DNA of 64,000 nt from Seongchinamella unica (lineage in GTDB: Bacteria; Pseudomonadota; Gammaproteobacteria; Pseudomonadales; Halieaceae), in the NCBI RefSeq assembly GCF_004354085.1, contig NZ_SMSE01000001.1, positions 233,335-297,334 on the forward strand, given 5' to 3'. Position 1 is the first letter of the stretch. Every line of letters starts with the position of its first letter. The notes beneath the pieces were generated by a model, which did not search any database, had not been told where the DNA came from, and was given only the letters and a program-made list of their open reading frames with translations. The position numbers and the translations under genes are program-made. This document shows, one piece after another, positions 1,572 through 16,497 of the stretch.

Positions 1572-3002
1572 TTATTGCGCCGGACGCCAGGTGCCGTGAA
1601 AGCCCGGCGGCACCCGGTGGGACAGGTTCGCCCGGGCTATCGGCCCGGCGGTGATATCAAGGGCGTTGAAGATCAGCAGGCTGCTCAGTCGGGTATCGAA
1701 ATCGATGGTCACCGCCAGCAAGTAACCGTCGCCCTCGGAGGCGTCGTCGCTGCGCGGGACGAACAAAGCCTCAGACACCATGCTCCTGCCACAGGAATAG
1801 GTCAGTGCTTCATTGCTCTGGTGATCCCAATAACCAATGGTGTTGTAGAGGTTCTGGTTAACCTCCATGTCACTCTTCAACTGCCCGTCGGTGGTGGTAT
1901 ACCAGCCGTGACGATAGGGCCGGCCGGCATAGCGCAAATCGATTTGGGGGAATTCCAGCTCGAAGTCATCCAGCGGCGTGGACTCAACCCGGGCGTCCGG
2001 GTTGCTCAAATCAATGGTCCAGCGGCACAACTGACTGCTCACCTCGCCGGTAGTTTCACCCTCCAGGGTCGGGAACAGGGGCGCCCGGGTGAACTGCGCG
2101 GCGTCCACGGTAATTACCCCGTCCTGATCAAAGGCGTTCATAAAGTGGAAAACAAAGCAGTTGTCCATTTCCAGCCAGCGAATACCCTCGGCACTGTCGG
2201 CATTGCGCGGCAGCACGCCAACGTGAACCCCTTTGCTGGGTTCCCAGGCGAAGGGAGGCCCGCCCTCCATGGCCCGTTCCAGGCTGCCGGTAATGGGGAA
2301 TATCGGGATGACGATATAATTCTCGGTGATCACGAAATCGTGAACCATCGCCGAGTAAGGGGTGGGAATATGAATACTCTGGGTCAGTACACCATCCGCA
2401 TTGACCTTGTGCACCATGACATCTTCTGAAAACGGCCCGGTGGCCATATAGGCGAAGAACACCATTTCACCGGTGGCAGGGTCAATTTTCGGGTGGGCAG
2501 TCATGGCCGTGTGCAGCTTGCCGCGGAATGTCCAACTGCCAATGGAATCAAGCGTCAGCGGATCGATCTCGTAGGGCCTGTGCCCCTCCTCCATGACCAG
2601 CATCCTGCCGCCGTGCCATACCGCCGCGGTATTGGCCAGGCCCTCCTTGTCGGCAAGCGTGAACTCGGCGTAATCCGGGTCACAGTCGAAGGGGTTCATG
2701 GCATTGATAACCGCCCTGCCCTCCATGTCCTCGATATTGAACTTGGCGGTGCGGACCCAGCGGTTGATGTAGTCCACCCTGCCCTCGGCGATATGGAAGG
2801 CGTGCACCATGCCGTCACCTGCAAACAGGTGGTAGTCGCCCCTCGGCCTGAAACGCTGGTTGGGTCCTGCACGGTAAAGTGTGCCATGAAGGTCCTTGGG
2901 GACTTCCCCCTCAATGACGAGGTCCTGTGCCTCGCACTCCATCTGGATGGGCCCCCAGGGAAAGTTGAGGAAGGGGTTGTCTGCGGGCATTGCCTGGGCC
3001 AT
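1572..3002 (-). CDS. Carotenoid-cleavage-type oxygenase (RPE65/lignostilbene dioxygenase family)
   Basis: The 476-residue product is a full-length carotenoid oxygenase family protein. These non-haem iron enzymes split a double bond in carotenoids, apocarotenoids or stilbenes. All four iron-binding histidines are in context: H170 (TAHPKIDP), H221 (MVHDF), H286 (FHFMNAF) and H469 near the C terminus (PPGFHGTW). The N-terminal LYRAGPNQRF motif is also typical. It is divergent from a TonB-dependent receptor gene with a shared 140-base promoter gap containing a palindrome found twice more in this window. No signal peptide is seen, so it should be cytoplasmic. The substrate could be an apocarotenoid or a lignin-derived stilbene; the sequence does not decide. 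Confidence 0.9.
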   Translation of the reverse strand: MAQAMPADNPFLNFPWGPIQMECEAQDLVIEGEVPKDLHGTLYRAGPNQRFRPRGDYHLFAGDGMVHAFHIAEGRVDYINRWVRTAKFNIEDMEGRAVINAMNPFDCDPDYAEFTLADKEGLANTAAVWHGGRMLVMEEGHRPYEIDPLTLDSIGSWTFRGKLHTAMTAHPKIDPATGEMVFFAYMATGPFSEDVMVHKVNADGVLTQSIHIPTPYSAMVHDFVITENYIVIPIFPITGSLERAMEGGPPFAWEPSKGVHVGVLPRNADSAEGIRWLEMDNCFVFHFMNAFDQDGVITVDAAQFTRAPLFPTLEGETTGEVSSQLCRWTIDLSNPDARVESTPLDDFELEFPQIDLRYAGRPYRHGWYTTTDGQLKSDMEVNQNLYNTIGYWDHQSNEALTYSCGRSMVSEALFVPRSDDASEGDGYLLAVTIDFDTRLSSLLIFNALDITAGPIARANLSHRVPPGFHGTWRPAQ

Positions 3003-3058
3003 GAGGATCTCGCTGTGTTCTTATGACAGGTACGCCAACATACCCGCGCCATTAAAAT

Positions 3059-3074
3059 CAGTCAATTCTGTTTG
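3059..3074 (+). promoter_or_regulatory. Candidate operator, copy 1 of 3
   Basis: CAGTCAATTCTGTTTG is an imperfect inverted repeat matching copy 2 (11289-11304) at 14 of 16 positions and the reverse complement of copy 3 (16421-16436) at 13 of 16. It sits between the divergent carotenoid oxygenase and TonB-receptor genes, and its right end overlaps the putative -35 box of the receptor gene. A TetR-like repressor site is one reading; no suitable regulator gene is in the window. Confidence 0.6.
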
Positions 3075-3100
3075 TTTTTAAAAAAGGCATTTGCTAAGGT
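3072..3100 (+). promoter_or_regulatory. Putative promoter of TonB-dependent receptor gene
   Basis: TTGTTT (3072-3077), a 17-base spacer ending in TGC, and TAAGGT (3095-3100) form a weak -35 with an extended -10. The same arrangement, including the TTTGCTA string, recurs downstream of operator copy 2. The -35 box shares its TTG with the operator, which fits repression by steric block. Confidence 0.4.
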
Positions 3101-3142
3101 CTTTGCCATTAATAACCATAATTTAAACCCTGGTACTGCTTT

Positions 3143-5554
3143 ATGAATAAAGCCATCCCCGCACTGGTGAGCGCAGCGCTCGTCACCCCGCTGAGCAGTT
3201 CGCCCGTCAAGGCCCAGGAACACCTGGCCCTGGAGGAAATCCTGGTCACCGCCAGCCGTCGGGTGGAGAGCCTGCAGGAAGTGGCCATGTCCGTGTCCGC
3301 TTTCTCCACTGACTTTCTTCAGAATACCGGGGTCAACGGCCTGGCAGCCCTGGAAGAATACACCCCCAACCTCAAGATCACGCCCGGAGGCACCGATTCC
3401 AACGCCACTTCCATCCGTATCCGCGGTATCGGCTCCATGGGTACCAATGCAGGCATAGACCCCAGCGTGGGCGTGTTCATCGACGGCATCTACCAGGGTC
3501 GCGCCGGGATGAGCATTGGCGACCTTGTCGATATCGAGCGGGTGGAAGTCCTGCGCGGCCCCCAGGGGACCCTGTACGGCAAGAACACCGCCGCGGGCGC
3601 CATCAGCGTGATCAGCAAACAGCCCGGCGGTGAGTTTGAAGCTTTTGCTGAAGTCACTTACGACAGCAACGATAAAGGCGAACTGCGCGGCATGCTCAAC
3701 CTGCCGCTGGGCGACAGTCCTCACGCGTTGCGGATGTCGGCGTTTGCAGCGAACGGTGACCACCTCTACAAAAACACCTTCACCGGCAGGGGCACCAACG
3801 ACGTCAACAAGTACGGCGGCCGCGCCAGGGTGCTGTTCGACCTCGAGGGTGACAGCAGCACCGAGGGTTTCGGTCAGTTTATCCTGACCCTGGATTACAC
3901 CAAAGAAGACACGGACTGCTGTGCTTTGGCCACGATCGGCTACGAGGGCCTGTCCACGCTCAACTCACCCACCACGGCAATCCCGACGGCGCAGCTGCAA
4001 CAGGAGCTGGGCATGAATGCCGCCGGACGTTACATCCTCCAGTACAAGACCCTGGAGGACGGGGCCGGATTTTCACCTCCGGCCGCTGATTCCTTCGATG
4101 ACGACTACTGGTTTGACGCCCCGGTTTACAACAAGGTAGACATCGGCGGCGCAGCACTGGAATGGAACCGCGACCTCGCCAACGACAGCACGATTACCTT
4201 CATCAACGCCTGGCGCTTTTACCAGTCGGACAGCGCCTATGATGGTGATTTTACCGCCTATGACGCGGTGATAGGCACCACCGATATCGACCTGGACCAG
4301 TTCTCGTCCGAACTGCGCATCACCTCCGGAGGCGGTGAGACGTTCGATTACCAGGGTGGGCTCTACGCCTATGTGTCGGACATGGATTCGGTGGGCACTT
4401 TCGAACAGGGCGAGCTGCTGGTTGACAGCATCTTTGTCATTCCCAACACCGACCTGACCATGGGGGTGTTCTTCCCCGATGGCACCCTCAACACCGACAC
4501 CAACAACTACAAGACCACCAGCTACGCCGCCTTTGGCCAGGTGGTGTGGAACATGACCGAGGCATTGAGCGCCACCCTCGGCCTGCGCTATACCTACGAA
4601 CGTAAGGAACGGTCCGGATCGCAAATCACCGACCCCGAATCCTTCCTGGATATTCCCCCGGTGGCGGGTCCCGATACACATTACGATAACAGCCGTTCCG
4701 ATTCCGCGGTTTCGCCATCCCTCAATGTCCGTTATTTCTTCAACCCGGATGTCATGGGCTATGCGTCAGTCAGCCGCGGCTTTAAATCAGGCGGCTTCGA
4801 CCAGCGGCGCCTGGTGCAGGGAGAAGCCGGGGAGTTCGACGAGGAAATCGCCACCAGTTATGAACTGGGCTGGAAAACAACGTTCGCCAATCGCCGCCTG
4901 CGGTTCAACGGCACCCTGTTCCTGGTTAACTACGACGACTTCCAGTCGCAGAGTTTTGACGGCGCGTCCGTGCGTGTGACCAACGCAGGTGATCTGCAAA
5001 GCTACGGCAGTGAGCTGGAACTGATCTTCCTGCCGGTGTCTAATATGACGCTGGGCAGCGCCATCGGCTACAACAAGGCGGAATACGACTCTTTTGACAA
5101 TGGCCAGTGCACCGTGACCCAGGCCTTCCAGCAGTACTATGTCATCGAGGGTGCCCAGTCTGGCTCTCCAAGCACCAGCGCCGTCTGCACCCAGGACCTT
5201 GCCGGACACCGACTTGACAATGCGCCGGAGTGGAACATCAGTTCATTCCTGCAATATTACCGCGACGTGGGCAGCACGCTTGCGGCAACGGCTCGCCTGG
5301 AGCACAGCTATATCGACGAGTTTTACCTGGACCAGGACCTGGACGAACACCTGAAAAACGACGCCGTGAACCTGGTCAACCTGCGGCTGTCGCTGAGCAA
5401 CCTGTCCCGGGACTGGGAGGTGTCGGTCTGGGGCCGCAACCTGCTGGACGAGGAATATTATTCCTGGGGCCTGGATACGCCCACCATCGGCGGCTACACC
5501 GGTGCGGTTGCACCCGGCGCCTATTACGGCGTCACCCTGCGCTACTTCCACTAG
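3143..5554 (+). CDS. TonB-dependent outer-membrane receptor
   Basis: This 803-residue outer-membrane receptor has a signal peptide ending near residue 25 (VKA|QEH), a TonB-box-like LEEILVTASRR, a plug domain (DIERVEVLRGPQGTLYGKNT region) and a long beta-barrel ending in YGVTLRYFH, with the usual aromatic last residue. It belongs to the broad receptor class expanded in sphingomonads and Halieaceae, where many members take up hydrophobic or complex organic compounds rather than siderophores. Its divergence from the carotenoid oxygenase suggests uptake of that enzyme's substrate, which is inference. No clear Shine-Dalgarno sequence precedes the ATG. Confidence 0.9.
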   Translation: MNKAIPALVSAALVTPLSSSPVKAQEHLALEEILVTASRRVESLQEVAMSVSAFSTDFLQNTGVNGLAALEEYTPNLKITPGGTDSNATSIRIRGIGSMGTNAGIDPSVGVFIDGIYQGRAGMSIGDLVDIERVEVLRGPQGTLYGKNTAAGAISVISKQPGGEFEAFAEVTYDSNDKGELRGMLNLPLGDSPHALRMSAFAANGDHLYKNTFTGRGTNDVNKYGGRARVLFDLEGDSSTEGFGQFILTLDYTKEDTDCCALATIGYEGLSTLNSPTTAIPTAQLQQELGMNAAGRYILQYKTLEDGAGFSPPAADSFDDDYWFDAPVYNKVDIGGAALEWNRDLANDSTITFINAWRFYQSDSAYDGDFTAYDAVIGTTDIDLDQFSSELRITSGGGETFDYQGGLYAYVSDMDSVGTFEQGELLVDSIFVIPNTDLTMGVFFPDGTLNTDTNNYKTTSYAAFGQVVWNMTEALSATLGLRYTYERKERSGSQITDPESFLDIPPVAGPDTHYDNSRSDSAVSPSLNVRYFFNPDVMGYASVSRGFKSGGFDQRRLVQGEAGEFDEEIATSYELGWKTTFANRRLRFNGTLFLVNYDDFQSQSFDGASVRVTNAGDLQSYGSELELIFLPVSNMTLGSAIGYNKAEYDSFDNGQCTVTQAFQQYYVIEGAQSGSPSTSAVCTQDLAGHRLDNAPEWNISSFLQYYRDVGSTLAATARLEHSYIDEFYLDQDLDEHLKNDAVNLVNLRLSLSNLSRDWEVSVWGRNLLDEEYYSWGLDTPTIGGYTGAVAPGAYYGVTLRYFH

Positions 5555-5618
5555 CACGAAGCGGGCGAGCTATACTTTTCCACTGAAGGCAGCGAACCGC
5601 GCAGCCCGGAGAGACCCA

Positions 5619-6425
5619 ATGAGCGACGAGCAGATTATCAGCAGCGACAGGGGTACCGGTCGCGTTGCCCCGGTTAAACGCAGTGGCTGGTACTACAACT
5701 GGGGGCCCCAGGCGTGGATAGATATGTGGATGTCCAACGCCATGCTGATGAAAAAAGCCATGCCCATCATCAGCCACACCTTCGTCCCCATACTGCGCCT
5801 GTCCGGCGACAAGGAACAGGTAGACCGGGACTATGCAGCGATAAAGGCGCGGCGGGAAATCGTCAGGCGCTTTGAGTCACCGCGGGAAAAGTGGCGCAAG
5901 CGCTACGGCAATTTTGTCCGCGAGGCCGAGTGGGCACTGCTGGAATTGCGCAAGCACTACAGCCAGAAGCAGTACGAAGAAATCGTCATCGGCACTTCTG
6001 TGGCCCTGTCCTACGAGACCTCCGCTGACTTCCTGAAGATGATGAATTCAATGTCCGAGAAAAATAAGGGCAAAAAGACCCGCAAGACTTCCGACGGTCG
6101 CCCACAAAAGCCCGGCCGCTGGAGCACTTTCCTGTTTGAAACGTTCAATCCGGCGCACTGGCTGACCGGGCCGGCAACAATTACCGCGTTCGATCCCTCC
6201 AACGGGCTTACGGTTATGGAGATCCCCGACTGCGCCTGGCATCGCTGCGGCCCCCAGCAAGATCTCCCGAACCCGAACGCGCTGCCGGAAGAAGGCTGCC
6301 TGAATATCTGCAAGGGCCCTTTCGAAGCACTATTCAACGGCGAAGGTGGCGGGCTCAAGATGGAGTTTGACCCCCATCTACCCGAGACATCCTGCACGGT
6401 AAGAATGAGCTGGGCCACCGATTAA
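5619..6425 (+). CDS. Hypothetical protein with cysteine-containing C-terminal domain
   Basis: I do not recognise this 268-residue protein with confidence. The N-terminal half is basic and probably helical. A lysine-rich linker near residues 149-165 is followed by a domain with conserved-looking cysteines (IPDCAWHRCG, EGCLNICKGPF, TSCTVRMSW). The spacing of C...C...C with a final aromatic recalls V4R or L-2-amino-thiazoline-4-carboxylate hydrolase-like domains, but that is a weak impression. There is no signal peptide. ATG 5619 follows GGAGAG. Its stop overlaps the start of the next small gene (TAATG), and both precede an SDR gene, so they probably form one operon with a role in the same catabolic pathway. 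Confidence 0.7.
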   Translation: MSDEQIISSDRGTGRVAPVKRSGWYYNWGPQAWIDMWMSNAMLMKKAMPIISHTFVPILRLSGDKEQVDRDYAAIKARREIVRRFESPREKWRKRYGNFVREAEWALLELRKHYSQKQYEEIVIGTSVALSYETSADFLKMMNSMSEKNKGKKTRKTSDGRPQKPGRWSTFLFETFNPAHWLTGPATITAFDPSNGLTVMEIPDCAWHRCGPQQDLPNPNALPEEGCLNICKGPFEALFNGEGGGLKMEFDPHLPETSCTVRMSWATD

Positions 6426-6634
6426 TGCTGTCATTGCGAGACCTGTTCTCACCCCGGCGGCGATTATTGCAACAGGAGCGGCGCATCCGGCAACTGGAAC
6501 AAAGCTTACAACAGCTCGAGGCACAGAATGCCAGCATGCGTGAAGGCATGCGACGCTGTGTCAGCTGCGACTACCGCCTGGAATTCAAAGACCGCCAGGG
6601 CGCAACAGGCATCGACATTATCAAAGCTAACTAA
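6425..6634 (+). CDS. Small coiled-coil protein with CxxC motif
   Basis: This 69-residue basic protein has a predicted coiled coil at about residues 15-40 (repeated Q/L/E heptads) followed by RRCVSCDYRLEF. No family is recognised. The start overlaps the preceding stop by one base (TAATG) and the SDR gene begins 12 bases after its stop, so coupling to both neighbours is likely. A role as a partner or oligomerisation subunit of the upstream unknown protein is possible but unproven. Confidence 0.6.
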   Translation: MLSLRDLFSPRRRLLQQERRIRQLEQSLQQLEAQNASMREGMRRCVSCDYRLEFKDRQGATGIDIIKAN

Positions 6635-6646
6635 CAAGGAGTATCT

Positions 6647-7519
6647 ATGTCCGTCATTCTAGTCACCGGCGCCAGCACCGGTATCGGCCAGACCACGTCC
6701 CTGCACCTGGCCAGCAAGGGACACCAGGTCTTTGCCGGCGTGCGCAGCCCGGACACCGCCCACGAACTGAAGGAACGAATCGACGCCCAGGGCAACCCGG
6801 TAGAATTGATCCAGCTCGATGTCACCGACCAGGGCTCCGTAGACAGTGCCGTACAACAGATCATGGCGCAGGCCGGCCGTATCGACGTACTGGTCAATAA
6901 CGCCGGTGTGGGCGGCGGCCGCGCAGTGGAGGAAACCCCGTTGGAGGAAGTCCGGGGCGTATTCGAGACCAACTACTTCGGGGTTACCCGGATGCTGCTG
7001 GCGGTTACCCCGATTATGCGCAAACAGCGGGCCGGCCGGATCATCAACATGAGTTCACTGGCGGGACGGATGGTGTTTGGCTGCCACGGCCACTACTCGG
7101 CAGCGAAGTGGGCGCTGGAAGGCCTGAGCGAGGCCCTGGCCTTTGAAATGGCCGAGTTCAATGTACGGGTGGCTCTGATAGAACCGGGTTCCGTGCCGAC
7201 CCCCGCATGGGAGAAGGGCTCCCCGCCCCCGGAAGACACCAGTTACGGTAACAGCCTCGCCCGGCTCGCCGCCTGGGCAACCTATACCATGAAAAACCCC
7301 GCCTCCACCCAGGATGTGGCCGATGCGGTGACTCATGCCATCGAATCAGAGGCGCCGCATTTCCGCTACCTGGTCGGCCAGGATGCTATCGAAGATGTGG
7401 CTGGCCGACACAGCGTAACCGACGATGAGTGGATCGAAATGAATCGCCTTCAGGGCCAGGACTTTGCCCGCCGCTGGAAACAGGTGGTGGGCGTTGATTA
7501 CTTCGGCGCTGACGACTAG
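6647..7519 (+). CDS. Short-chain dehydrogenase/reductase
   Basis: This is a classical SDR of 290 residues. It has the nucleotide-binding motif TGASTGIG (residues 7-14), NNAG in VLVNNAGVGG, a serine in INMSSLAG and the catalytic Y-S-A-A-K. The first motif resembles NADP(H)- or NAD(H)-using oxidoreductases acting on secondary alcohols or ketones. AAGGAG lies 6 bases upstream of ATG 6647. It is the last gene of a three-gene plus-strand unit with the two unknown genes at 5619 and 6425. The substrate is unknown. Confidence 0.88.
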   Translation: MSVILVTGASTGIGQTTSLHLASKGHQVFAGVRSPDTAHELKERIDAQGNPVELIQLDVTDQGSVDSAVQQIMAQAGRIDVLVNNAGVGGGRAVEETPLEEVRGVFETNYFGVTRMLLAVTPIMRKQRAGRIINMSSLAGRMVFGCHGHYSAAKWALEGLSEALAFEMAEFNVRVALIEPGSVPTPAWEKGSPPPEDTSYGNSLARLAAWATYTMKNPASTQDVADAVTHAIESEAPHFRYLVGQDAIEDVAGRHSVTDDEWIEMNRLQGQDFARRWKQVVGVDYFGADD

Positions 7520-7531
7520 GTGCTGAAGCAG

Positions 7532-7550
7532 GGGCGGCTTCTGGCCGCCC
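7532..7550. other. Stem-loop between convergent genes
   Basis: GGGCGGC (7532-7538) and GCCGCCC (7544-7550) pair perfectly around a 5-base loop, 13 bases after the SDR stop and before the convergent alcohol dehydrogenase stop. There is no strong T-tract, so termination is plausible but not certain. Confidence 0.4.
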
Positions 7551-7597
7551 TCCTCTCCCAGCACTGTGGTATCAACGCTTGCTCACACGTGCAGCGC

Positions 7598-8632
7598 CTA
7601 GCAGAACCGGGTCAGCACCTTGCACTGGTGGCTGGGGGTTCGCAGGGCCTCGAAAGCATCCGGCAGGTCATCGAGGCTGACGATATCGGTAATCATCGGC
7701 GAGACCTCAATACGTCCCTCCGCCAGCATCGCCAGACAGGTTTCGAAATCATCCTTGGTATAAGCAATGGCAAACTGGATTTGCAACTCCTTCACCAGAC
7801 CGAAAAACGGCATGATGGCGTCGGGCTTTTCACACACTCCCACCGGAATGATTTTGCCTCTTTGCGGTGCAACTTCAATGCATTGCTGCAACAGTCCCGG
7901 CGCACCCACGCACTCAAAAATAACGTCGGGCGGCCCGCCGGTTTCAGCGATGTACTGCTCGAGGAGTTGCTCAGCGCCCGCCGCCGGGTCGGGCTGAATC
8001 ACGCTGGTTGCGCCCATCTTTTTCGCCAGCGCGGAGCGACTGCTGGCGAGTTCGCTGACCACTACATCCCGGGCGCCAAAAAAACGCGCCCAGAGGGCAA
8101 CCGTTAGGCCAATAGGTCCCGCGCCAATCACCAGCACACGACTTCCGGCCTTCACCTCCGCTATCCGCACAGCGTGAATCCCCACCGCCAGCGGCTCTAC
8201 CAGGGACGCGGTTTGCAGTTCCAGGTTATCGGGTAAACGCAGGGTCTCCCTGGCGCCGGTAGCCACGTACTCGGCAAAGCCGCCGGGGGCGTCTACCCCT
8301 GAAGTTTTCTTGTTCTGGCACTCGAAGAAGTGACCCTGGGCGCAGGGCAAACACTTGCCGCAGGCGATAAACGGCAGCGCGCACACCCGGTCACCGACTG
8401 CCCAGTCACCTTCAGCCTCCTTGCCCACTTCGACAATTTCACCCACGTATTCGTGACCCAGCACCTGGCCGCAGCAGGCGGTGGTCAGGCCCTCGCGGGT
8501 GGCGTGCAGGTCGGTGCCACACACGCCGCAGTAAGCGACCTTGACCACCAGGTTGTCGGCCGCTGGGGCTGGGTCGGCAATGGACTCCACCGCCAGTGGC
8601 TTGCCTACTTCCTTGAATACAGCTGCCTTCAT
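7598..8632 (-). CDS. Zinc-dependent medium-chain alcohol dehydrogenase
   Basis: The 344-residue MDR-family enzyme has catalytic zinc residues C38 (YCGVCGTD), H60 and E61 (GHEYVG), four structural-zinc cysteines C91, C94, C97 and C105, and a nucleotide-binding GAGPIG. It resembles the threonine/butanediol dehydrogenase branch, oxidising a secondary or primary alcohol with NAD(P). Its start overlaps the end of the upstream P450 gene by 4 bases (ATGA), so it is co-translated with a monooxygenase and probably oxidises the hydroxylated product. This functional link is inference. Confidence 0.88.
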   Translation of the reverse strand: MKAAVFKEVGKPLAVESIADPAPAADNLVVKVAYCGVCGTDLHATREGLTTACCGQVLGHEYVGEIVEVGKEAEGDWAVGDRVCALPFIACGKCLPCAQGHFFECQNKKTSGVDAPGGFAEYVATGARETLRLPDNLELQTASLVEPLAVGIHAVRIAEVKAGSRVLVIGAGPIGLTVALWARFFGARDVVVSELASSRSALAKKMGATSVIQPDPAAGAEQLLEQYIAETGGPPDVIFECVGAPGLLQQCIEVAPQRGKIIPVGVCEKPDAIMPFFGLVKELQIQFAIAYTKDDFETCLAMLAEGRIEVSPMITDIVSLDDLPDAFEALRTPSHQCKVLTRFC

Positions 8633-9903
8633 GATGCCTCGTTCTCCAGTGTCCGGGTTGCCCGCCGCGGGCGCTTGTCAAAGGTGATGTGTAGCGACTT
8701 AAGGCCACGCAGCACCATGTTGGGCCAGTGGCTCAGGTCATTTTTGCCCTCGGCAAGCTGAATGTTGTCCAGTCGCTCCAGCAGTTTACCCAGGCCCACG
8801 ATCATTTCCTTGCGCGCCAGCATGGCGCCGGGACAGAAATGCGTTCCCTGGCCAAAGGCGATGTGATCATCGGCATTGTGCCGACAGATATCAAAGCGTT
8901 CCGCATCGTCAAACACCCGCTCGTCGCGGTTGGCCGCCGCGTAGCGCAACATGACCATGGCACCCGCGGGGATCAGGGTGCCATTAAATTCCACGTCGCG
9001 GGTCACCGCTCGCCACAAACCGGCGCTGGGCGTTTCCATGCGCAGAATCTCTTCCACCGCGTTTGCCATATGCAAAGGGCCTTCCCGCAACAGACACATC
9101 TGCTGCGGGTTCCGGATCAGCGACAGCATTCCGCCGGCCAGTGAACTGGTGGTGGTCTCGTTGCCGGCCACCAGGAATTGCTGGACGATGCTGATAAGCT
9201 CGGCATCGCTCAAACTCCGGCCATCATCGATCTCGGCGGTGGCGAGGTCTGAAATCATGTCATCCCTGGGTTCCCGGCGACGGGCGTCAATCACCCCCAG
9301 TATGTACTGCTGGAATTCCCGCACCGCCAACGCAATGTCTTTTGCCTGCTCCGGGGAGACCATGCCACCGAGGCGCGCCGCCAGCGAGTCAGACCACACT
9401 TTGAATCGCGGCAGCAACTCCCTGTCGATCCCCAGCTGATCGGCGATCACCATCAGCGGCAGTGGCGAGGCAAAGGCGGCAATGAACTCGCACTCGCCAT
9501 CATCAATAAAACCATCGATTAACTCGTCGACGATTTGCTCAATATAGTCGTGCATCTGCTGCACCCGCCTGGCGGAAAACACCTTGTTCACCAGGCTGCG
9601 ATATACCCGGTGCCGGGGCGGGTCCAGGGTCAGCAGGGTATCGGCCGGTTCGACGGTGCCCTCATAGAGCGCCCTCACCTCCTCGGTCTCGCCGGCGCCG
9701 GACAGCAGGTGGGCGAAATTACTGGAAAAAGTTTCCGTATCCTTGAGCATGGCACGGATATCCGCATGCCGGGTCACCAGGTAGATGTTGCTACCCGGTA
9801 GCAGGTACACCGGCGCCTCTTCCCTGGCCAGCCGGTAGAAGTCAAAGGGGCACTCCAGGACTTCCTCGGAAAAGAAGTTGTAGTCCTGCAACGACCGGGA
9901 CAA
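8629..9903 (-). CDS. Cytochrome P450 (second of a tandem pair)
   Basis: This is a soluble bacterial P450 of 424 residues without a membrane anchor. The haem-binding motif FGQGTHFCPG places the thiolate at C357, the I-helix oxygen-activation motif is AGNET (246-250), and the K-helix ExxR is E285-R288. It shares long stretches with the adjacent P450 (DPPxHxVYRSLxNKVFSA, YIEQxVDELID, ADDHIAFG), so the pair arose by tandem duplication. The two are separated by 4 bases, and the alcohol dehydrogenase gene follows with a 4-base overlap. It needs a ferredoxin and reductase; no classical P450 redox partner lies nearby. Confidence 0.93.
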   Translation of the reverse strand: MSRSLQDYNFFSEEVLECPFDFYRLAREEAPVYLLPGSNIYLVTRHADIRAMLKDTETFSSNFAHLLSGAGETEEVRALYEGTVEPADTLLTLDPPRHRVYRSLVNKVFSARRVQQMHDYIEQIVDELIDGFIDDGECEFIAAFASPLPLMVIADQLGIDRELLPRFKVWSDSLAARLGGMVSPEQAKDIALAVREFQQYILGVIDARRREPRDDMISDLATAEIDDGRSLSDAELISIVQQFLVAGNETTTSSLAGGMLSLIRNPQQMCLLREGPLHMANAVEEILRMETPSAGLWRAVTRDVEFNGTLIPAGAMVMLRYAAANRDERVFDDAERFDICRHNADDHIAFGQGTHFCPGAMLARKEMIVGLGKLLERLDNIQLAEGKNDLSHWPNMVLRGLKSLHITFDKRPRRATRTLENEAS

Positions 9904-9907
9904 GCGA

Positions 9908-11185
9908 TCAGGCCTCCATCGCAGCGGGTGCAGCCTGCGCCGCCCGAGGCTCGAAGGTAATATGCAGTTCCTTCAGGCCGCGCAATACCATGTTAGGCCA
10001 ATGCGTCAGGTCGTTTTTGCCCTCCGCCAGACGGATATTGGTCATCCGCGCCAGAATGCGTTCGTAGGCGACCTGCATTTCCTTGCGCCCGAGAAAGGCC
10101 CCCGGGCAGAAGTGCGTGCCATAGCCGAAGGCGATATGGTCATCGGCGTTGTGCCGGCAAACATCCATGACTTCCGGATTGTCGAACACCTGTTCATCGC
10201 GATTGGCCGCCGCATAGCGCAGCATCAGCAGGGAACCTTTGGGAATAGCCACTCCGCGCAGTTCAACGTCGCGGGTCACCACCCGCCACAAACCGGCGGA
10301 GGGTGATTCAAGGCGCAGGATTTCCTCAACGGCATTGGCAATCATGGCCGGGTCGTCCAACAGCGCCTGCAACTGGTCAGACAGCTGGATCAGCGACAAA
10401 AGGCCGCCGGTGGTGGCCGAGGTCGTGGTCTCGTTGCCGGCCACCAGCAATTGCTCGATCATGCTGAGCAGTTCCTCCACGGTCATCAGGCGCTCCCCTT
10501 CCGGGGGTTTGATCAGGTTGTTGGCGAGGTCGGAGATCATATCGTCCTGCGGGTTTTCCCGGCGGTCGGCGATGATGCCTGCCATATAGTTCTGGTATTC
10601 GACAATCAGCCGGGCATTCTCTACTTCTTCCTCCGCCGAGGCCATGCCGCCCAGGCGGGAAGCAAAGGCATCAGACCAGGCCTTGATACGCCGCAGGTCC
10701 TTGCGCGGCACGCCCAGCTGGTCTGCAATCACATACACCGGCAGCGGGGTGGCAAAGTCACGCACGAACTCACACTCGCCGCTGTCAATAAACTCGTCGA
10801 TCAACTCATCCACCACCTGCTCGATGTAATCACGCATGCCCTCTACCCGCTTGGCGGAAAACACCTTGTTGATCAGCGAGCGATACACCTTGTGCTGGGG
10901 CGGGTCCAGGGTTAGCAGCGTGGGCGGCTGGGCGTATCCGGACGCATAAATTTCGGCGGCCTCTGGCGAGGGCTCTGGCCCCTTCAGCAGCTCCTGGAAA
11001 TCGTTGGAGAACGTCGCCGTATCGCGGTTGATCTGGCGGATATCTTCCCAGCGAGAGACCATGTATATCTCGGTGCCCGGCAGGTGATAAACCGGTGCCT
11101 CGCGGCGAATGACCTCATAAAACTCGAACGGTGACTCGATAACCTCAGGTGAAAAGAAGTCGAAATCGGCGGGGCATTTGGCCAT
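9908..11185 (-). CDS. Cytochrome P450 (first of a tandem pair)
   Basis: This is a 425-residue soluble P450: haem motif FGYGTHFCPG with C360, I-helix AGNET (249-253), and ExxR at E288-R291. The frame is open to 11257, but I start at ATG 11185 because GGAG lies about 10 bases upstream and the N terminus then aligns residue for residue with the downstream paralogue (DFFSPEVIESPFEFY against NFFSEEVLECPFDFY). It is the first gene of a P450-P450-alcohol dehydrogenase operon, divergent from an SDR operon. The gap between them holds operator copy 2. Confidence 0.93.
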   Translation of the reverse strand: MAKCPADFDFFSPEVIESPFEFYEVIRREAPVYHLPGTEIYMVSRWEDIRQINRDTATFSNDFQELLKGPEPSPEAAEIYASGYAQPPTLLTLDPPQHKVYRSLINKVFSAKRVEGMRDYIEQVVDELIDEFIDSGECEFVRDFATPLPVYVIADQLGVPRKDLRRIKAWSDAFASRLGGMASAEEEVENARLIVEYQNYMAGIIADRRENPQDDMISDLANNLIKPPEGERLMTVEELLSMIEQLLVAGNETTTSATTGGLLSLIQLSDQLQALLDDPAMIANAVEEILRLESPSAGLWRVVTRDVELRGVAIPKGSLLMLRYAAANRDEQVFDNPEVMDVCRHNADDHIAFGYGTHFCPGAFLGRKEMQVAYERILARMTNIRLAEGKNDLTHWPNMVLRGLKELHITFEPRAAQAAPAAMEA

Positions 11186-11288
11186 GGTTTTCTCCAGTGC
11201 CACTGGGGTGGCTATGAGTCTTATTCGCGGTGTCTGCTCCGGCCAGAACACCGGCAAGACTGGCTCACATTAGCGAATAGAAAATAAA

Positions 11289-11304
11289 CAGTCAAATCTG
11301 ATTG
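11289..11304 (+). promoter_or_regulatory. Candidate operator, copy 2 of 3
   Basis: CAGTCAAATCTGATTG is the most symmetrical copy, differing from the perfect palindrome CAATCAGATCTGATTG at two positions. It lies between the divergent P450 and SDR operons and overlaps the putative -35 box of the SDR operon, so one protein bound here could control both. Confidence 0.65.
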
Positions 11305-11330
11305 TTTTTTTCAGGGTTGTTTGCTACTTT
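11302..11330 (+). promoter_or_regulatory. Putative promoter of SDR/acyl-CoA dehydrogenase/Rieske operon
   Basis: TTGTTT (11302-11307), a 17-base spacer ending TGC, then TACTTT (11325-11330). Both the spacing and the TTTGCTA and TTTGCCA strings match the promoter at 3072-3100, although the surrounding bases differ. Confidence 0.4.
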
Positions 11331-11433
11331 GCCAATGGACGCAAATTTAACCCTCAGAACGGCGTTCGCAGCGGCACACCCACCGCGCAATTCCGTCTGG
11401 CTTACCCACTATCCCCCGCTTCAGGAGACAGAC

Positions 11434-12195
11434 ATGGATCTCGGACTCGCTGGCAAGAATGCCGTAATCACTGGTTCAACCCGCGGCATCGGCCGCGCCA
11501 TCGCCAACCTGCTGGCTGACGAAGGCGTCAACCTGGCTATTTGTGCGCGCAACCAGGCAGAAGTAGACGGCGCCGTTGCCGACCTGAGTGCCAGGGGCGT
11601 CAAGGTCACCGGCGCCGTGGTAGACGTGGCTGACAAGGCGGCCTACCAGGAATGGATTACCAGCGCCGGTGAAGCACTGGGGGGTATCGATATTTTCGTG
11701 CCCAACGTCAGCGCCGGCGGCGGTAACATGGGTGAGGAAGGCTGGGAGGCCAATTTCAACATCGACCTGCTGGGCACCACCCGCGGCATAGAGGCGGCCA
11801 TGCCCTTCCTGGAGAAGTCTTCCGCAGCCTCTATCGTCATCATCTCCTCCACCGCGGGCGTGGAAACCTTCATGGGGCCACAACCCTATAACGCTATCAA
11901 GGGGGCGCTGGTCATTCATGCCAAGCAACTGAGCCAGGCACTGGCACCTGCGGGTATCCGCGTAAACTGCGTATCCCCGGGCCCCATTTACATCGAAGGC
12001 GGCGCCTGGGAATTTATCAAGGACAATATGACCGAACTGTACGATGCCACGCTGGCAGATATCCCCTCCGGCCGCTTTGGCAGCGCCGAGGAAGTGGCCA
12101 ACGCCGTGGCGTTCATCGCCAGCCCGGCGGCCAGCCTGATCACCGGCGTCAACCTGGTGGCGGACGGCGGGTTCACCAAGCGCGTCCAGCTGTAA
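11434..12195 (+). CDS. Short-chain dehydrogenase/reductase, SDR family
   Basis: The 253-residue SDR has TGSTRGIGRA for cofactor binding, ISSTAG with the catalytic serine region and Y-N-A-I-K as the catalytic tyrosine-lysine pair. The usual NNAG is replaced by VPNVSAGGG, which is uncommon. The DGGFTKRVQL ending is typical of 3-oxoacyl reductase-like SDRs. I start at ATG 11434, which follows AGGAGA; the longer frame from 11302 would run through the promoter. It is the first gene of an operon with the acyl-CoA dehydrogenase at 12218 and the Rieske oxygenase at 13435. Confidence 0.88.
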   Translation: MDLGLAGKNAVITGSTRGIGRAIANLLADEGVNLAICARNQAEVDGAVADLSARGVKVTGAVVDVADKAAYQEWITSAGEALGGIDIFVPNVSAGGGNMGEEGWEANFNIDLLGTTRGIEAAMPFLEKSSAASIVIISSTAGVETFMGPQPYNAIKGALVIHAKQLSQALAPAGIRVNCVSPGPIYIEGGAWEFIKDNMTELYDATLADIPSGRFGSAEEVANAVAFIASPAASLITGVNLVADGGFTKRVQL

Positions 12196-12217
12196 ACCAC
12201 CGCCGGGGCTGTCATCG

Positions 12218-13405
12218 ATGGATCTCAAGTTTTCAGATCAGGAACTGGCGTTCCAGCAGGAAGTCCGGCAATTCCTTGCCGATAACCTCAGCGAGGAAAT
12301 CGTCGAGACCACGGCGCGCAATGCCAGTGTGTTCGTCGAAAAGGAGTTGGCGCTGCAATGGCAGTCTATCCTCGTACAGAAAGGCTGGGCAGTGCCCCAG
12401 TGGCCCACCGAGCACGGCGGCACCGAATGGACACCGGCACAGAAATACATCTTCAGCCGGGAGTGCTATCTGGCCGGGGCGCCCATGCTGATTCCCCTGG
12501 GTCTGCTGATGCTGGCGCCGGTCATCATGGCTTTCGGTTCCGAGCAGCAGAAGCGCGAGATTCTGCCGAAGATTCTCTCCGGCGAGCAGTACTGGTGCCA
12601 GGGTTACAGCGAACCCGGTGCGGGATCAGACCTGGCCAGCCTGAAACTGAAAGCAGAAGCGGATGGCGATGACTATATCGTCAACGGCTCCAAGATCTGG
12701 ACAACCCACGCCCACATGGCGGACCATATTTTCTGCCTGGTGCGCACCGACAACAGCGGCAGGCCGCAACAGGGCATCAGCTTCCTGCTTATCGACATGG
12801 ACAGTCCCGGCGTGACCGTTGAGCCCATCATTACCATGGCCGGTGACCACGAGGTCAACCAGGTATTCTTCGACAACGTGCGCGTGCCCCAGAGCAATCG
12901 CATCGGCGAGGAGAACAAGGGCTGGACCTACGCCAAGTACCTGCTGGAATTTGAGCGCGGCGGCGGCTTCTCCGGTCCGCTGGTGCAACATGAACTGGCT
13001 CGCTTGCAGGCGCTCTACGGCGAGACCCGCGAAGCGGTGCATAATTTCGATAGCACCGGTGACCTGCAGCGCAAGATCGCCCGCATCGAGATTGACCTCA
13101 AGGCGCTGGAGATTACCGAACTGCGGATTCTGTCGGCGGTCAGCGGCGGTGGCAACCCCGGACCGGAGTCCTCGCTGCTCAAGCTCAACACCACCCGACT
13201 GGAGCAGGAAATCAACCAGCTGTCGCTGGACATACTCGGTTACCGCGGCCTTGAGCTGGACCCGGTGGCAGGCGGCAGCCCCTATCGCCCCGACCCCATA
13301 TCTGCCGTACTGCCGCGCTACCTCAATAATCGCGCGGCCTCCATCTTTGGCGGTTCGCAGGAAGTACAGCGCAATATCATTGCCAAAATGGTCCTCGGCC
13401 TTTAG
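12218..13405 (+). CDS. Acyl-CoA dehydrogenase family protein
   Basis: The 395-residue flavoprotein has the three-domain acyl-CoA dehydrogenase layout. It shows an N-terminal helical segment, the central CQGYSEPGAGSDLASL and KIWTTHAHMAD motifs that contact FAD and substrate, and a C-terminal helical domain ending FGGSQEVQRNIIAKMVLGL. It resembles the branch acting on bulky or dicarboxylic acyl-CoAs (pimeloyl-CoA dehydrogenase or FadE-like proteins of sterol breakdown) more than straight-chain enzymes. Together with the MaoC pair it could supply beta-oxidation-type steps. It sits 22 bases after the SDR and 29 before the Rieske gene. Confidence 0.88.
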   Translation: MDLKFSDQELAFQQEVRQFLADNLSEEIVETTARNASVFVEKELALQWQSILVQKGWAVPQWPTEHGGTEWTPAQKYIFSRECYLAGAPMLIPLGLLMLAPVIMAFGSEQQKREILPKILSGEQYWCQGYSEPGAGSDLASLKLKAEADGDDYIVNGSKIWTTHAHMADHIFCLVRTDNSGRPQQGISFLLIDMDSPGVTVEPIITMAGDHEVNQVFFDNVRVPQSNRIGEENKGWTYAKYLLEFERGGGFSGPLVQHELARLQALYGETREAVHNFDSTGDLQRKIARIEIDLKALEITELRILSAVSGGGNPGPESSLLKLNTTRLEQEINQLSLDILGYRGLELDPVAGGSPYRPDPISAVLPRYLNNRAASIFGGSQEVQRNIIAKMVLGL

Positions 13406-13434
13406 CGCCGTTCGCCACAGGGAGACCGCTTCCC

Positions 13435-14589
13435 ATGCATAGGGACAGGCAGATCGCCGAAGTAAAAGCCCTGCTCGCGCTCATCGCCCGCAAGTCTACC
13501 GCGCTCGCCAGGGAGGTCATGGCGATCGACGTGCAGGAGTACACAGACCCCGCACTGTTCGAACGCGAGAAGCGCCAGCTGTTTCGCAACTACCCGCAGT
13601 TTGTCGGGCCCAGCTGCCTGCTGCCGGAGGCCGGCGATTACTTCGCATTTGACGACACCGGCGTACCTATCCTCCTGGTACGGCAACCCGAGGGTACATT
13701 AAACGCGTTCCTCAATATCTGCTCGCACCGCGGGGCACCCCTGAACGAATGCCAGCACGGCAAGGCCAAAAAAGGCCGGCTGTTCAGCTGTCCCTATCAT
13801 GGCTGGAGCTACGACCTGGAGGGCTGCCTGATTGGCGTACCCTTCGGCAGCGAGGGGTTCCCCGGACTGGAGCGGGACAAACTGGGCCTGCGCCCGCTTA
13901 AGGTAGCGGAGAAAAACGGGCTGATCTTCGTTATGCCCAATCCGGAACTGAATTTCGATATCGATGAGGTGCTCGGGGGTATCGATGAACATCTGGCCGG
14001 TTTCGGCCTGCAGGATCACCACTACCTGGGCGTCAAACAGGTGTACACCGATTTCAGCTGGAAGCTGAACATGGACACCTTCCACGAGTTTTATCACTTT
14101 GAGCACCTGCATGCCGAGTCCATTGCGCAGATGGCCTACAGCAACCTGGGAACCTATCACCAGTACGGACGCAATCACGCTATGGGTTCCGCCACCCTGT
14201 CGATTACCGAGCTGGAATCGCTTCCCGAGGACCAGTGGCAACCCCGGGCCTACACCTCCCATGTTCACTATATTTTTCCGAACACCGTGATCTTCGTGGT
14301 GGAGGACCATTTCCAGACCTGGCGGGTATACCCGCTGGCTGCGGACCGCTCGGTGGTGTACCACAGCATGTTCCTGCCGCAGGCGCCGGCCAGCGAGGAA
14401 CAGCGCGACGAGTACGAGGCCTATTTCCAGATGATTAACGATGTGGCGGTGACCGAGGACTACACCCTGGTCGACAAAATCAGGCGCGGCCTGGACGCAG
14501 ACATAAAGCGCCAGGTATTGCTGGGACGCAATGAACCGGGCGTGCAAAACATGCATCGACAAATTCATGATGTGCTCGGCATGAAATAA
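13435..14589 (+). CDS. Rieske non-haem iron oxygenase, alpha subunit
   Basis: The 384-residue oxygenase has a Rieske [2Fe-2S] domain with C96-x-H98 (ICSHRG) and C119-xx-H122 (CPYHGW). A catalytic domain follows, with the mononuclear-iron histidines H221 and H226 in the EFYHFEHLH motif. Such enzymes hydroxylate or demethylate aromatic or alicyclic substrates using electrons from a reductase or ferredoxin. No beta subunit gene adjoins it, so it is probably an alpha-only oxygenase. It is last in the plus-strand operon starting at 11434 and converges on the Rieske ferredoxin gene. Confidence 0.92.
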   Translation: MHRDRQIAEVKALLALIARKSTALAREVMAIDVQEYTDPALFEREKRQLFRNYPQFVGPSCLLPEAGDYFAFDDTGVPILLVRQPEGTLNAFLNICSHRGAPLNECQHGKAKKGRLFSCPYHGWSYDLEGCLIGVPFGSEGFPGLERDKLGLRPLKVAEKNGLIFVMPNPELNFDIDEVLGGIDEHLAGFGLQDHHYLGVKQVYTDFSWKLNMDTFHEFYHFEHLHAESIAQMAYSNLGTYHQYGRNHAMGSATLSITELESLPEDQWQPRAYTSHVHYIFPNTVIFVVEDHFQTWRVYPLAADRSVVYHSMFLPQAPASEEQRDEYEAYFQMINDVAVTEDYTLVDKIRRGLDADIKRQVLLGRNEPGVQNMHRQIHDVLGMK

Positions 14590-14658
14590 CGCCGCATTTT
14601 AGCCCGAGAGCCGACGTCCCACGGGGCTGGTCCAGCGATGGCGGCTGCGCTACCGGCA

Positions 14659-14979
14659 CTAATCCGTCACTGCGATAGCGATGGCATCCCCAGTGACTTT
14701 AACCCGGTAACTGGCCAGTCCTCGGACCGCCGGTCGACTGAGGGCGCTGCCGTCGCGAACGTCGAAAGCCGCTCCGTGTAACGGACACAGTACCCTGTTG
14801 CCCTTGAGCTTGCCCTCACACAGGCGGGCGGCACCGTGGGTACACAGGTTATCCAGCGCGAATACGCCGTCGGCGGTGTGGCATAACAATATTTCCCTGT
14901 CCGCCACAGCAACAGCGGCGCAGCGCCCCTGCGGCAGGTTGGCGAGACTGGCCACCTGGACGAATTCGTCGTTACTCAT
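14659..14979 (-). CDS. Rieske-type [2Fe-2S] ferredoxin
   Basis: This 106-residue single-domain protein has C46-x-H48 (LCTHGAA) and C65-xx-H68 (CPLHGA), the ligands of a Rieske cluster. It is the size of ferredoxins that carry electrons to ring-hydroxylating oxygenases. A GAGGAGG ribosome site precedes ATG 14979, and the gene overlaps the end of the Rieske oxygenase gene by 8 bases, so that oxygenase is its likely partner. It may also serve the oxygenase at 13435. The cognate flavoprotein reductase is not encoded nearby. Confidence 0.88.
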   Translation of the reverse strand: MSNDEFVQVASLANLPQGRCAAVAVADREILLCHTADGVFALDNLCTHGAARLCEGKLKGNRVLCPLHGAAFDVRDGSALSRPAVRGLASYRVKVTGDAIAIAVTD

Positions 14980-16366
14980 TACCCGCCTCCTCGAGAAATT
15001 CATCCAGGGTCATGTGCACCCGGCGTATACGTGATTCCTGGTAGTTACCCAGGGTGATACCGGGCTTGCGGGCGGTTTTAAAGCCCTGCTGCTGTAATGC
15101 CAGGTTACCCGTGTCCTCGTCGTAAACCGGCCCCAACCAGCCCAGACCCTCGGCCTCGGTGTAGGACTGTTCCACGCTCAGGCAGACTGGTTCCGGTGGC
15201 TGCGGATGTTGCGCGCCTTCCGCCAGGGGTTCAAGAATCAGGAAATCGAACAGGCTGCTGTCGACGTCTTCCCCGTTGGGACGGAAGCGGTATACCATGG
15301 ACACCGTAATTCCAGGGAAGAAAAACATATTCGGAAACAGGTGGTATTCGATGGAGTCCAGCATGAGCGTGTCGCTGGTTGCCGAAAAATCGATCCCCAG
15401 TGCCTCGCCCAGTTTATGGCGCAGGTCTTGTGCCGCCACCTCTCGCGCCGTCTTACCGGCGGGGACCTCATCATGTTCCAGCCCGAACACTGACAACATC
15501 TGCAGGATTTCATTTTCGCTGAGTGGCGGCGCACGCCACTTATCCCCCGGATAGTCCGCCAGTGATTCCGCGCTGTAATTGCCGATGTTGTGGATAAAGC
15601 GACTGACGTACTTGCCAAAAATGTCGTACTGGGCATTGGCACCATTGGGACCATCGTGGGTTTCAAAGTTGTGGTAGGCCTCCATAAAGGCCTCCTGGGC
15701 GGCCTTCCAGTTGGCCGGTAAAGTTTTCTGCACATGCAGGCGGACACGTCTGCGCTCCAGCGGAAAGTGACTGAAATGCGCCGGCAGCACCTCCAGGTAG
15801 TCGGCCAGCGGCCCGGCGTGGGTGTCCAGGTTGATAAATACGAAGCCGCCCCAGGTCTCGCACTGCACCGGCTGCAAGCTGTGGGTCTCCTCGCTGACGT
15901 GGGGAAAGTCCCAGCGCGCGGGCAGCGCCTGCAAACAGCCGTCGAGACTGAAAGACCAGCCGTGGAACGGGCAGGTAAATGCATTGCTAAAGCCCGTCCC
16001 CTCGCCACCCAGAATACGCGTGGCCCGGTGAGGACAGCTGTTGATAAACGCGCGGATACCGTCCGCCGAACTGCGCACCACGATGACCGAGTAGGGGCCG
16101 ATCTGGTAGACATAATTGTCGCCCACATCGGGAATGTGCTCTTCCCGGCACACCCACTGCCAGCAGCGATTCCACAAACGATCGAACTCCTTGCGGGCGA
16201 AATCCGCCGAGATGTAACGACTGCAGTCGATATCGTCGTCACCCAGGAACTGGTAACTCTGGTCCAGCAGTGGCGCAGGGACCTCCCGGGAATCGGTGGC
16301 CAGCGTCTCTGCGACAGTCGCTCCACCGGCGCGGGCCGCACCTGGTGCTGGGTTATTCTGGTTCAT
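14972..16366 (-). CDS. Rieske non-haem iron oxygenase, alpha subunit (long form)
   Basis: The 464-residue oxygenase has Rieske ligands C111, H113 (SCPHRAT), C132 and H135 (CPFHGW), and catalytic-iron histidines H232 and H237 (AYHNFETH). It has an extra N-terminal stretch and a long C-terminal region compared with the 384-residue oxygenase at 13435, and the two are not close paralogues. It is co-transcribed with a Rieske ferredoxin and divergent from two NTF2-like genes across a 131-base gap containing operator copy 3. The substrate is unknown. Confidence 0.92.
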   Translation of the reverse strand: MNQNNPAPGAARAGGATVAETLATDSREVPAPLLDQSYQFLGDDDIDCSRYISADFARKEFDRLWNRCWQWVCREEHIPDVGDNYVYQIGPYSVIVVRSSADGIRAFINSCPHRATRILGGEGTGFSNAFTCPFHGWSFSLDGCLQALPARWDFPHVSEETHSLQPVQCETWGGFVFINLDTHAGPLADYLEVLPAHFSHFPLERRRVRLHVQKTLPANWKAAQEAFMEAYHNFETHDGPNGANAQYDIFGKYVSRFIHNIGNYSAESLADYPGDKWRAPPLSENEILQMLSVFGLEHDEVPAGKTAREVAAQDLRHKLGEALGIDFSATSDTLMLDSIEYHLFPNMFFFPGITVSMVYRFRPNGEDVDSSLFDFLILEPLAEGAQHPQPPEPVCLSVEQSYTEAEGLGWLGPVYDEDTGNLALQQQGFKTARKPGITLGNYQESRIRRVHMTLDEFLEEAGNE

Positions 16367-16420
16367 GCTGTAGGGGTCTCCTGCTCGCCTGTGGCTGGAC
16401 GGAACGGCATCACATCAATA

Positions 16421-16436
16421 CAATCAGGATCGACTG
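16421..16436 (-). promoter_or_regulatory. Candidate operator, copy 3 of 3
   Basis: CAATCAGGATCGACTG on the plus strand; its reverse complement matches copies 1 and 2 at 13 of 16 positions each. It lies between the divergent Rieske oxygenase and NTF2-like operons. In the minus orientation it points toward the Rieske oxygenase, as the other two copies point toward their plus-strand operons. No clear -10 box is visible on either side. Confidence 0.5.
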
Positions 16437-16497
16437 TTTTTAATTATGGACGCCGGGTGCAGGACAATGCAAGTCCGCCCGCCGCAGGTAGCCGCCA

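Follow-up and report, generated by a model that had tools for sequence, protein, structure and literature searches.

The window, as we call the whole stretch of Seongchinamella unica DNA analysed here (64,000 nucleotides; C1:233335-297334), contains three 22-bp imperfect palindromes, each located in the gap between divergently oriented genes. The first, AATCAGTCAATTCTGTTTGTTT (3056..3077; C1:236390), lies between a carotenoid oxygenase gene of the RPE65 family (1572..3002, minus strand), whose product has dioxygenases of the lignostilbene type, lignostilbene dioxygenase included, as its best solved relatives, and a gene for a TonB-dependent receptor (3143..5554, plus strand). The second, AAACAGTCAAATCTGATTGTTT (11286..11307; C1:244620), separates a putative minus-strand operon, made up of a cytochrome P450 whose best solved matches are CYP125/CYP142-type steroid hydroxylases (9908..11185), another cytochrome P450 (8629..9903) and, as third gene, a zinc-type alcohol dehydrogenase (7598..8632), from a putative plus-strand operon encoding a short-chain dehydrogenase (SDR; 11434..12195), an acyl-CoA dehydrogenase (ACAD; 12218..13405) and a Rieske oxygenase alpha subunit (13435..14589). 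The third, ATACAATCAGGATCGACTGTTT (16418..16439; C1:249752), is flanked by a further Rieske oxygenase alpha subunit gene (14972..16366, minus strand) and a pair of genes for SnoaL/NTF2-like proteins (16498..17034 and 17031..17543, plus strand). The second site matches the consensus described below without mismatch, and the first and third differ from it at two positions each. An isocitrate-lyase-family protein of 531 amino acids is encoded at 20153-21748, adjoining the catabolic genes.

The original prediction described the repeat as a 16-bp palindrome, and we found its three 16-mers at the positions and on the strands given, with pairwise agreement of 14, 13 and 13 of 16 positions. The repeated site is real, and its unit is 22 bp long, with an additional 18-bp form, so that the 16-mer represents only the core. 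The consensus of the 22-bp imperfect palindrome, derived from five sites (the three in the window, C1:228001 and C3:37777), is AAACARTCARNNYTGAYTGTTT. Its description as close to a true inverted repeat holds better for this consensus than for the individual sites, as symmetry is only moderate in window sites 1 and 3, which match their own reverse complement at 12 of 22 positions each, compared with 18 of 22 in site 2. The T-rich plus-strand stretch that had been noted corresponds to the palindrome's right arm, and the left arm is A-rich.

Within the window alone, the relaxed 16-mer (up to three mismatches) is not above chance, with 6 matches against 3.87 expected and at least 6 in 21 of 100 shuffles. 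In the whole genome (4,193,411 bases on 10 contigs), the 16-mer at up to two mismatches yields 36 matches against 8 for the reversed pattern, and the 22-bp palindrome at up to three mismatches yields eight sites in 4.19 Mb against none for its reversed control (C1:216588, 227998, 232596, 236390, 244620, 249752 and 362449, and C3:37774). Rather than occurring at background frequency inside genes, the 22-bp motif is found predominantly between divergent promoters: all three window sites and seven of the eight genome-wide matches fall in divergent intergenic gaps, which make up 2.9% of the C1:194-297 kb region. Six of these seven sites, including the three in the window, lie within C1:216,588-249,773, and the seventh is on contig C3. 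We discounted the eighth match, C1:362449, as a chance occurrence, since it lies inside a 756-aa open frame (one that stricter gene calling drops). Among the 36 relaxed 16-mer matches, 30 had an assigned locus that was inspected, and these comprise five operators and a remainder located mostly in open frames; six matches are without an assigned locus. One relaxed match, C3:617414, resembles tRNA genes by eye, and another, CGGTCAGATCTGATTG at window positions 47758-47773, has two mismatches to the 16-mer, lies within an open frame and is probably due to chance.

The proposal that one regulon unites the oxygenase, receptor, P450, Rieske and NTF2-like genes is supported by these data, with the amendment that its bounds were drawn too narrowly, as further sites lie outside the window, one of them on another contig. 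The additional 22-bp sites in divergent gaps are found between genes for a SnoaL-like and a PNPOx-like protein (C1:216588; the latter assignment is weak, slightly below the Pfam cut-off), between a CurA-like reductase and a series encoding an ABM protein, a molybdopterin oxidoreductase and a TetR-type regulator (C1:227998), between an acyl-CoA dehydrogenase and a nitroreductase (C1:232596), and between a series encoding ThuA, E1 alpha, E1 beta, E2 and an AMP ligase and a gene for a 137-aa protein without Pfam match (C3:37774). The nearest relatives of the CurA-like reductase are an oxidoreductase and double-bond reductases. The 18-bp form, AAACAGTCTCGTCTGTTT, lies at C1:226419 between a second carotenoid oxygenase gene, followed on the same strand by genes for a thiolase, a Rieske protein and two SDRs, and a SnoaL gene; the thiolase is SCP2-like. 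This is the only match in the genome to the 18-bp pattern AAACARTCNNGAYTGTTT at up to one mismatch, and the control gave none.

It had also been stated that no fitting regulator is in the window. Among the window proteins scanned (to 28.7 kb), an AraC-family protein with an arabinose-binding-type N-terminal domain (27620-28690) is the only regulator. We rejected it as the regulator of the motif, given that close relatives occur in 11 of 58 genomes, comprising 7 of the 17 that bear the motif (up to two mismatches) and 4 that are motif-free. Our candidate is instead encoded 1.9 kb to the left of the window (C1:230743-231417), 122 bp past the molybdopterin gene and on the same strand, as the last of the three genes behind site C1:227998. 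TetR-type regulators are common, and this one carries a TetR_N helix-turn-helix domain (PF00440, E 3e-15, 56.2 bits against a cut-off of 24). The AlphaFold2 model of its HTCC2148 orthologue consists entirely of helices (mean pLDDT 86.9), and the 50 PDB matches listed for that model are all transcription regulators, many of them labelled TetR family (query TM-score 0.36-0.60). Moreover, the recognition-helix segment RGAMLHHFPSK is invariant in 28 TetRs with identities down to 42% (32 were first listed; L188, L189, L219 and L228 were left out, L189 having a stop in its translation). We consider it very probable that the palindrome is the operator of this TetR protein, which would govern a shared, ligand-released catabolic regulon, most likely through dimer binding and repression.

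A prediction of this reading, conservation upstream of orthologues, was borne out, as orthologous gene pairs in other genera have sites too. At seven gene pairs, mean identity to the site of our genome is 83-94%, compared with 25-52% in the 45-bp flanks, a site identity that is partly selected because the rows were chosen for matching the motif. The carotenoid oxygenase/TonB pair also has a site in G001, G002, G007, G012, G022 and G039. Counterparts of window site 2 lie beside the orthologues in G007, G012 and G013; in G022 the site adjoins a P450 gene at the end of a contig, and in G001 and G002 it separates P450 and ACAD genes. In these last two genomes an SDR relative (55-57%) is located elsewhere, with a three-mismatch site about 80 bp upstream. 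The Rieske/SnoaL pair has a site in G001, G007 and G026; G002 also has one, flanked on its left by a Rieske match of partial length (111 aa). Similarly, the 18-bp form adjoins relatives of the second carotenoid oxygenase and SnoaL genes in G001, G002, G007, G012, G022 and G026. A point against this reading is that, among the matches listed at up to three mismatches, none lies near the carotenoid-oxygenase relatives (56-66%) of G013, G015 and G026. At G007:C31:244294 and G026:C37:81914, a second carotenoid oxygenase gene (51-52% identical to that of the window) lies directly beside the first.

The presence of the motif follows that of the TetR gene closely. Close TetR orthologues (at least 54% identity) are found in 10 of 57 relatives, and in the resulting set of 58 genomes, our own included, sites with up to two mismatches occur in 11 of 11 genomes with such a TetR and in 6 of the 47 others (G021, G027, G039, G043, G054 and G056), with reversed-control matches in 2 of 58; the Fisher tests on genome counts take genomes as independent. 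At this threshold the 11 genomes carry 5 (G000), 8 (G001), 6 (G002), 8 (G007), 4 (G012), 4 (G013), 8 (G015), 4 (G022), 1 (G025), 5 (G026) and 1 (G044) sites, and four genomes of the same genus that have no close TetR lack the motif. At up to three mismatches, we counted 71 sites in ten close-TetR genomes and a single one in seven genomes without (G003-G006, G009, G014 and G017), two of which have TetR homologues of 32-36% identity; G021, G018 and G039 have 3, 4 and 3 sites, and controls total 8 over the 20 genomes. Across 244 genomes drawn from the order, a site with up to one mismatch is present in 11, namely in all 7 with a TetR of at least 66% identity, in none of the 3 with a TetR of 56%, and in 4 of the 234 others, among which five with 32-44% homologues have no site at this threshold. 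Of 14 genomes with a close TetR, 10 carry the 18-bp form (up to one mismatch), as do 2 of 14 without one; the control matches in 2 of these 28 genomes.

The pathway genes show much the same distribution, as close relatives of the carotenoid oxygenase (E <= 1e-120) are found in 10 of 58 genomes, nine with a close TetR plus G039, and close relatives of the SDR (E <= 1e-80) in 12, ten with a close TetR plus G018 and G021. Since TetR and pathway genes co-occur, what the motif tracks is the island as a whole, of which TetR is one part, and co-occurrence by itself is no proof of binding. It is conceivable, if unlikely, that another regulator binds the palindrome, with the TetR gene carried along in the island as a passenger. 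G039 would fit such a scenario: one of its two sites (up to two mismatches) lies at the carotenoid oxygenase/TonB pair (L057, L142), and our search for a full-length TetR there returned only a 125-aa open frame matching TetR residues 119-221. The four genomes of the order that have a site at up to one mismatch and no close TetR likewise count against the TetR reading. In G021, the site AAAAAAGCAAGCTTGATTGTTT lies 107 bp upstream of a TetR gene of 38% identity, with an E1-alpha homologue on the opposite side, and both G018 and G021 (L138-L141) have 38%-identical TetRs alongside diverged sites.

Sites in the promoter of tetR itself provide evidence that is more specific for TetR than co-occurrence, and together with sites near the 40-46% homologues they argue against a passenger. 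A site with up to three mismatches is present in 22 of 27 loci with close TetR orthologues, among them HTCC2148, three Microbulbifer and records of Halioglobus and Haliea (seven of the 27 are genomes also among the 58), and in 38 of 53 loci with 40-46% TetRs, where part of the matches are 18-bp sites read in a shifted frame; the control gave 0 of 80. It had been suggested that the regulator gene should carry the same site in its own promoter, and this is the case in many relatives. In our own genome no clear site immediately precedes tetR, which counts against the TetR reading. In the 260 bp before the gene, the 18-mer (up to three mismatches) occurs in 15 of the 27 orthologue loci (control 0) and the 22-mer in 3; upstream of the 40-46% homologues, the 22-mer occurs in 21 of 53 loci (control 3) and the 18-mer in 5 (control 0). 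The invariant recognition-helix segment, the resemblance to CymR and its operator discussed below, and the failure of the AraC protein at 27620 to track the motif likewise speak for TetR itself.

The arrangement of promoter elements suggests how such a regulator might act. At site 1, the palindrome contains a -35-like TTGACT for the carotenoid oxygenase gene (3060..3065, minus strand), 17 bp from a -10-like TATGTT (3037..3042), and its right end is a -35-like TTGTTT for the TonB receptor gene (3072..3077, plus strand), 17 bp from TAAGGT (3095..3100). The same layout is seen at site 2, where TTGACT (11290..11295, minus strand) is 17 bp from TAATGT (11267..11272) for the P450 operon and TTGTTT (11302..11307, plus strand) is 17 bp from TACTTT (11325..11330) for the SDR operon. 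Site 3 (16418..16439) has no convincing promoter boxes, and the double layout is absent there. In 35 regions drawn from four gene pairs, TTGTTT forms the right end of the palindrome in 34 and TTGACT is present on the other strand in 30. A TANNNT element lies 17 bp beyond these boxes in 30 regions on the right and in 26 on the left, compared with 0-4 of the 35 at any other spacer between 10 and 24 bp. By pair, the right and left counts at 17 bp are 7 and 7 of 9 for carotenoid oxygenase/TonB, 6 and 7 of 8 for P450/SDR, 12 and 11 of 13 for CurA/ABM, and 5 and 1 of 5 for the ThuA pair, so that the double layout holds at three pairs and the ThuA pair shows the ThuA side only, its missing left promoter being a further point against the TetR reading. 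When the -10 elements are instead compared with TATAAT (31 of the 35 regions; the spacer count used all 35), none of 31 on the right matches at four or more of six positions, and the 17-bp spacing stands out on the left only.

From these features we infer binding, repression, operon structure and ligand class. TetR would bind the palindrome as one or more dimers and repress transcription, and since both -35 hexamers (TTGACT and TTGTTT, each 17 bp from TANNNT) lie inside the palindrome, a single bound repressor could turn off the two operons together. Release of TetR would come from a pathway ligand, probably an aromatic or terpenoid acid of hydrophobic character or its CoA ester, and would co-induce TonB-dependent uptake, the two carotenoid-oxygenase-type enzymes, the two P450s, the Rieske proteins and beta-oxidation-type steps. 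Because TetR is encoded within its own target operon, together with the ABM protein and the molybdopterin oxidoreductase, it would also be subject to autoregulation. Activating TetR proteins are known, and the weak fit of the right-hand promoters to the consensus could be read as a sign that TetR activates from the palindrome; we regard this as rather improbable, as the palindrome covers the two -35 hexamers wherever the promoters are resolved, a position from which a repressor typically acts by keeping RNA polymerase out. The two -35-like boxes and their 17-bp spacing to TANNNT at three gene pairs could also mean that the conserved sequence is a recurrent divergent sigma-70 promoter module with no dedicated operator, an option we hold to be very unlikely given that conservation reaches the outer arm bases beyond the -35 boxes, that several other sites are without the double-box layout and that the four same-genus genomes without a close TetR lack the motif. 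A chance or composition artefact, to which only the unremarkable window-only 16-mer count would point, has a negligible probability in light of the genome-wide 22-mer count, its empty control and the cross-genus conservation.

Returning to repression by TetR, its candidate operators come in two half-site spacings. A scan for AAACARTC and GAYTGTTT (up to one mismatch, gaps 0-40) in 89 loci totalling 747,456 bases, with some genomes present twice, found 63 pairs at gap 6, 13 at gap 2, 5 at gap 10 (these overlap gap-6 sites) and one each at gaps 24 and 29, against 2 in the control; gap 6 is over-represented, as many of the loci had been chosen for their 22-bp matches, and the AAAC repeat leaves some spacings ambiguous. 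In the 53 distant loci, gap 2 (29) exceeds gap 6 (15). The half-site AAACARTC is kept near the 40-46% TetR homologues and in three sphingomonad clusters, where gap-2 sites are also found, and a single locus can hold both the 18-bp and the 22-bp form (L171, L206 and L228). It is possible, and we propose it tentatively, that one TetR lineage reads AAACARTC half-sites at both spacings within one regulon, for instance the 22-bp form at structural operons and the 18-bp form at its own promoter. The difference of 4 bp corresponds to about 0.4 helical turn, which would be hard for one rigid dimer to accommodate and suggests dimer pairs or a flexible mode of binding. The two operator spacings thus pose a testable puzzle in DNA recognition by TetR proteins.

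The closest parallel we noted is CymR, the TetR-type p-cumate repressor of Pseudomonas putida F1. The core of its operator CuO, AAACAGACAATCTGGTCTGTTT, has the same 22-bp half-site spacing and three mismatches to our consensus; we treat this likeness as a lead, because 110 of 300,000 random imperfect palindromes fit the consensus as well. Like the TetR proposed here, CymR represses an aromatic-acid catabolic pathway, and its recognition helix, AGVSRGAxxHHFPxK, resembles that of our TetR. Identity to CymR is 31% over 121 aa, and we therefore do not file our TetR as CymR. The present system also differs in having seven divergent 22-bp sites and one 18-bp site, spread over two contigs and serving another gene set. 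As a lead, then, this TetR may work like CymR without being identified as CymR. In KstR-type regulons of steroid catabolism, one TetR protein acts through palindromic sites across a large degradation gene set. The KstR operator differs from our palindrome, and we rejected an identification as KstR, as our TetR reaches 25.9 bits with the NCBIfam model for KstR, whose cut-off is 280. The CuO sequence itself appears as AACAAACAGACAATCTGGTCTGTTTGTA in a passage of PMC12868391.

Clusters resembling our regulon are also found in sphingomonads. In plasmid clusters of Sphingobium sp. RAC03, from the algal phycosphere, and of Croceicoccus marinus, a TetR gene of 35-37% identity has AAACARTC/GAYTGTTT half-sites beside it and is accompanied by SDR, Rieske, acyl-CoA dehydrogenase, OB-fold/thiolase and TonB genes like those described here, as annotated by family only. 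These clusters differ from ours in having the 18-bp and not the 22-bp spacing, and oxoacid dehydrogenase and ThuA genes are found in the RAC03 stretch only. We rejected PheR of Sphingobium as a match, as the passages concerned discuss it with IclR-family regulators and give it a different site (PMC13273656). Carotenoid oxygenases are named in passages of a review on lignin dimers, where matches to 'tetr' are words such as tetrahydrofolate (PMC12997858). Six operator strings were in none of the papers searched, a set that mostly leaves out the subscription literature. None of those papers joins Halioglobus, TetR and carotenoid oxygenase or HTCC2148, aromatic and ring-hydroxylating, and among the titles, abstract openings and, for two papers, passages surveyed, nothing describes this regulon.

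Our findings would join two carotenoid-oxygenase-type enzymes, P450s, Rieske oxygenases, TonB uptake and an oxoacid dehydrogenase in one candidate pathway of Halieaceae and Microbulbifer relatives. Judging from the enzyme families, the substrate would be an aromatic or terpenoid compound of hydrophobic character, with nothing narrower indicated, and since whatever releases TetR is expected to be either this substrate or a pathway intermediate, the operator-regulator pair could itself serve to find the substrate. The embedded double -35 layout would also constitute a compact bidirectional switch. In G001, G002 and G007, three genomes of the same genus that possess the TetR, we observed a 22-bp site with one or two mismatches in the interval between metG-like and rsxA/rnfA-like genes, upstream of the latter (L091, L097 and L104; gene names assigned by eye from the translation). 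The same interval in the other 12 of 15 genomes examined, our own included, has at best five mismatches, and the rsxA/rnfA-like gene may represent a recent recruitment of electron transport into the regulon.
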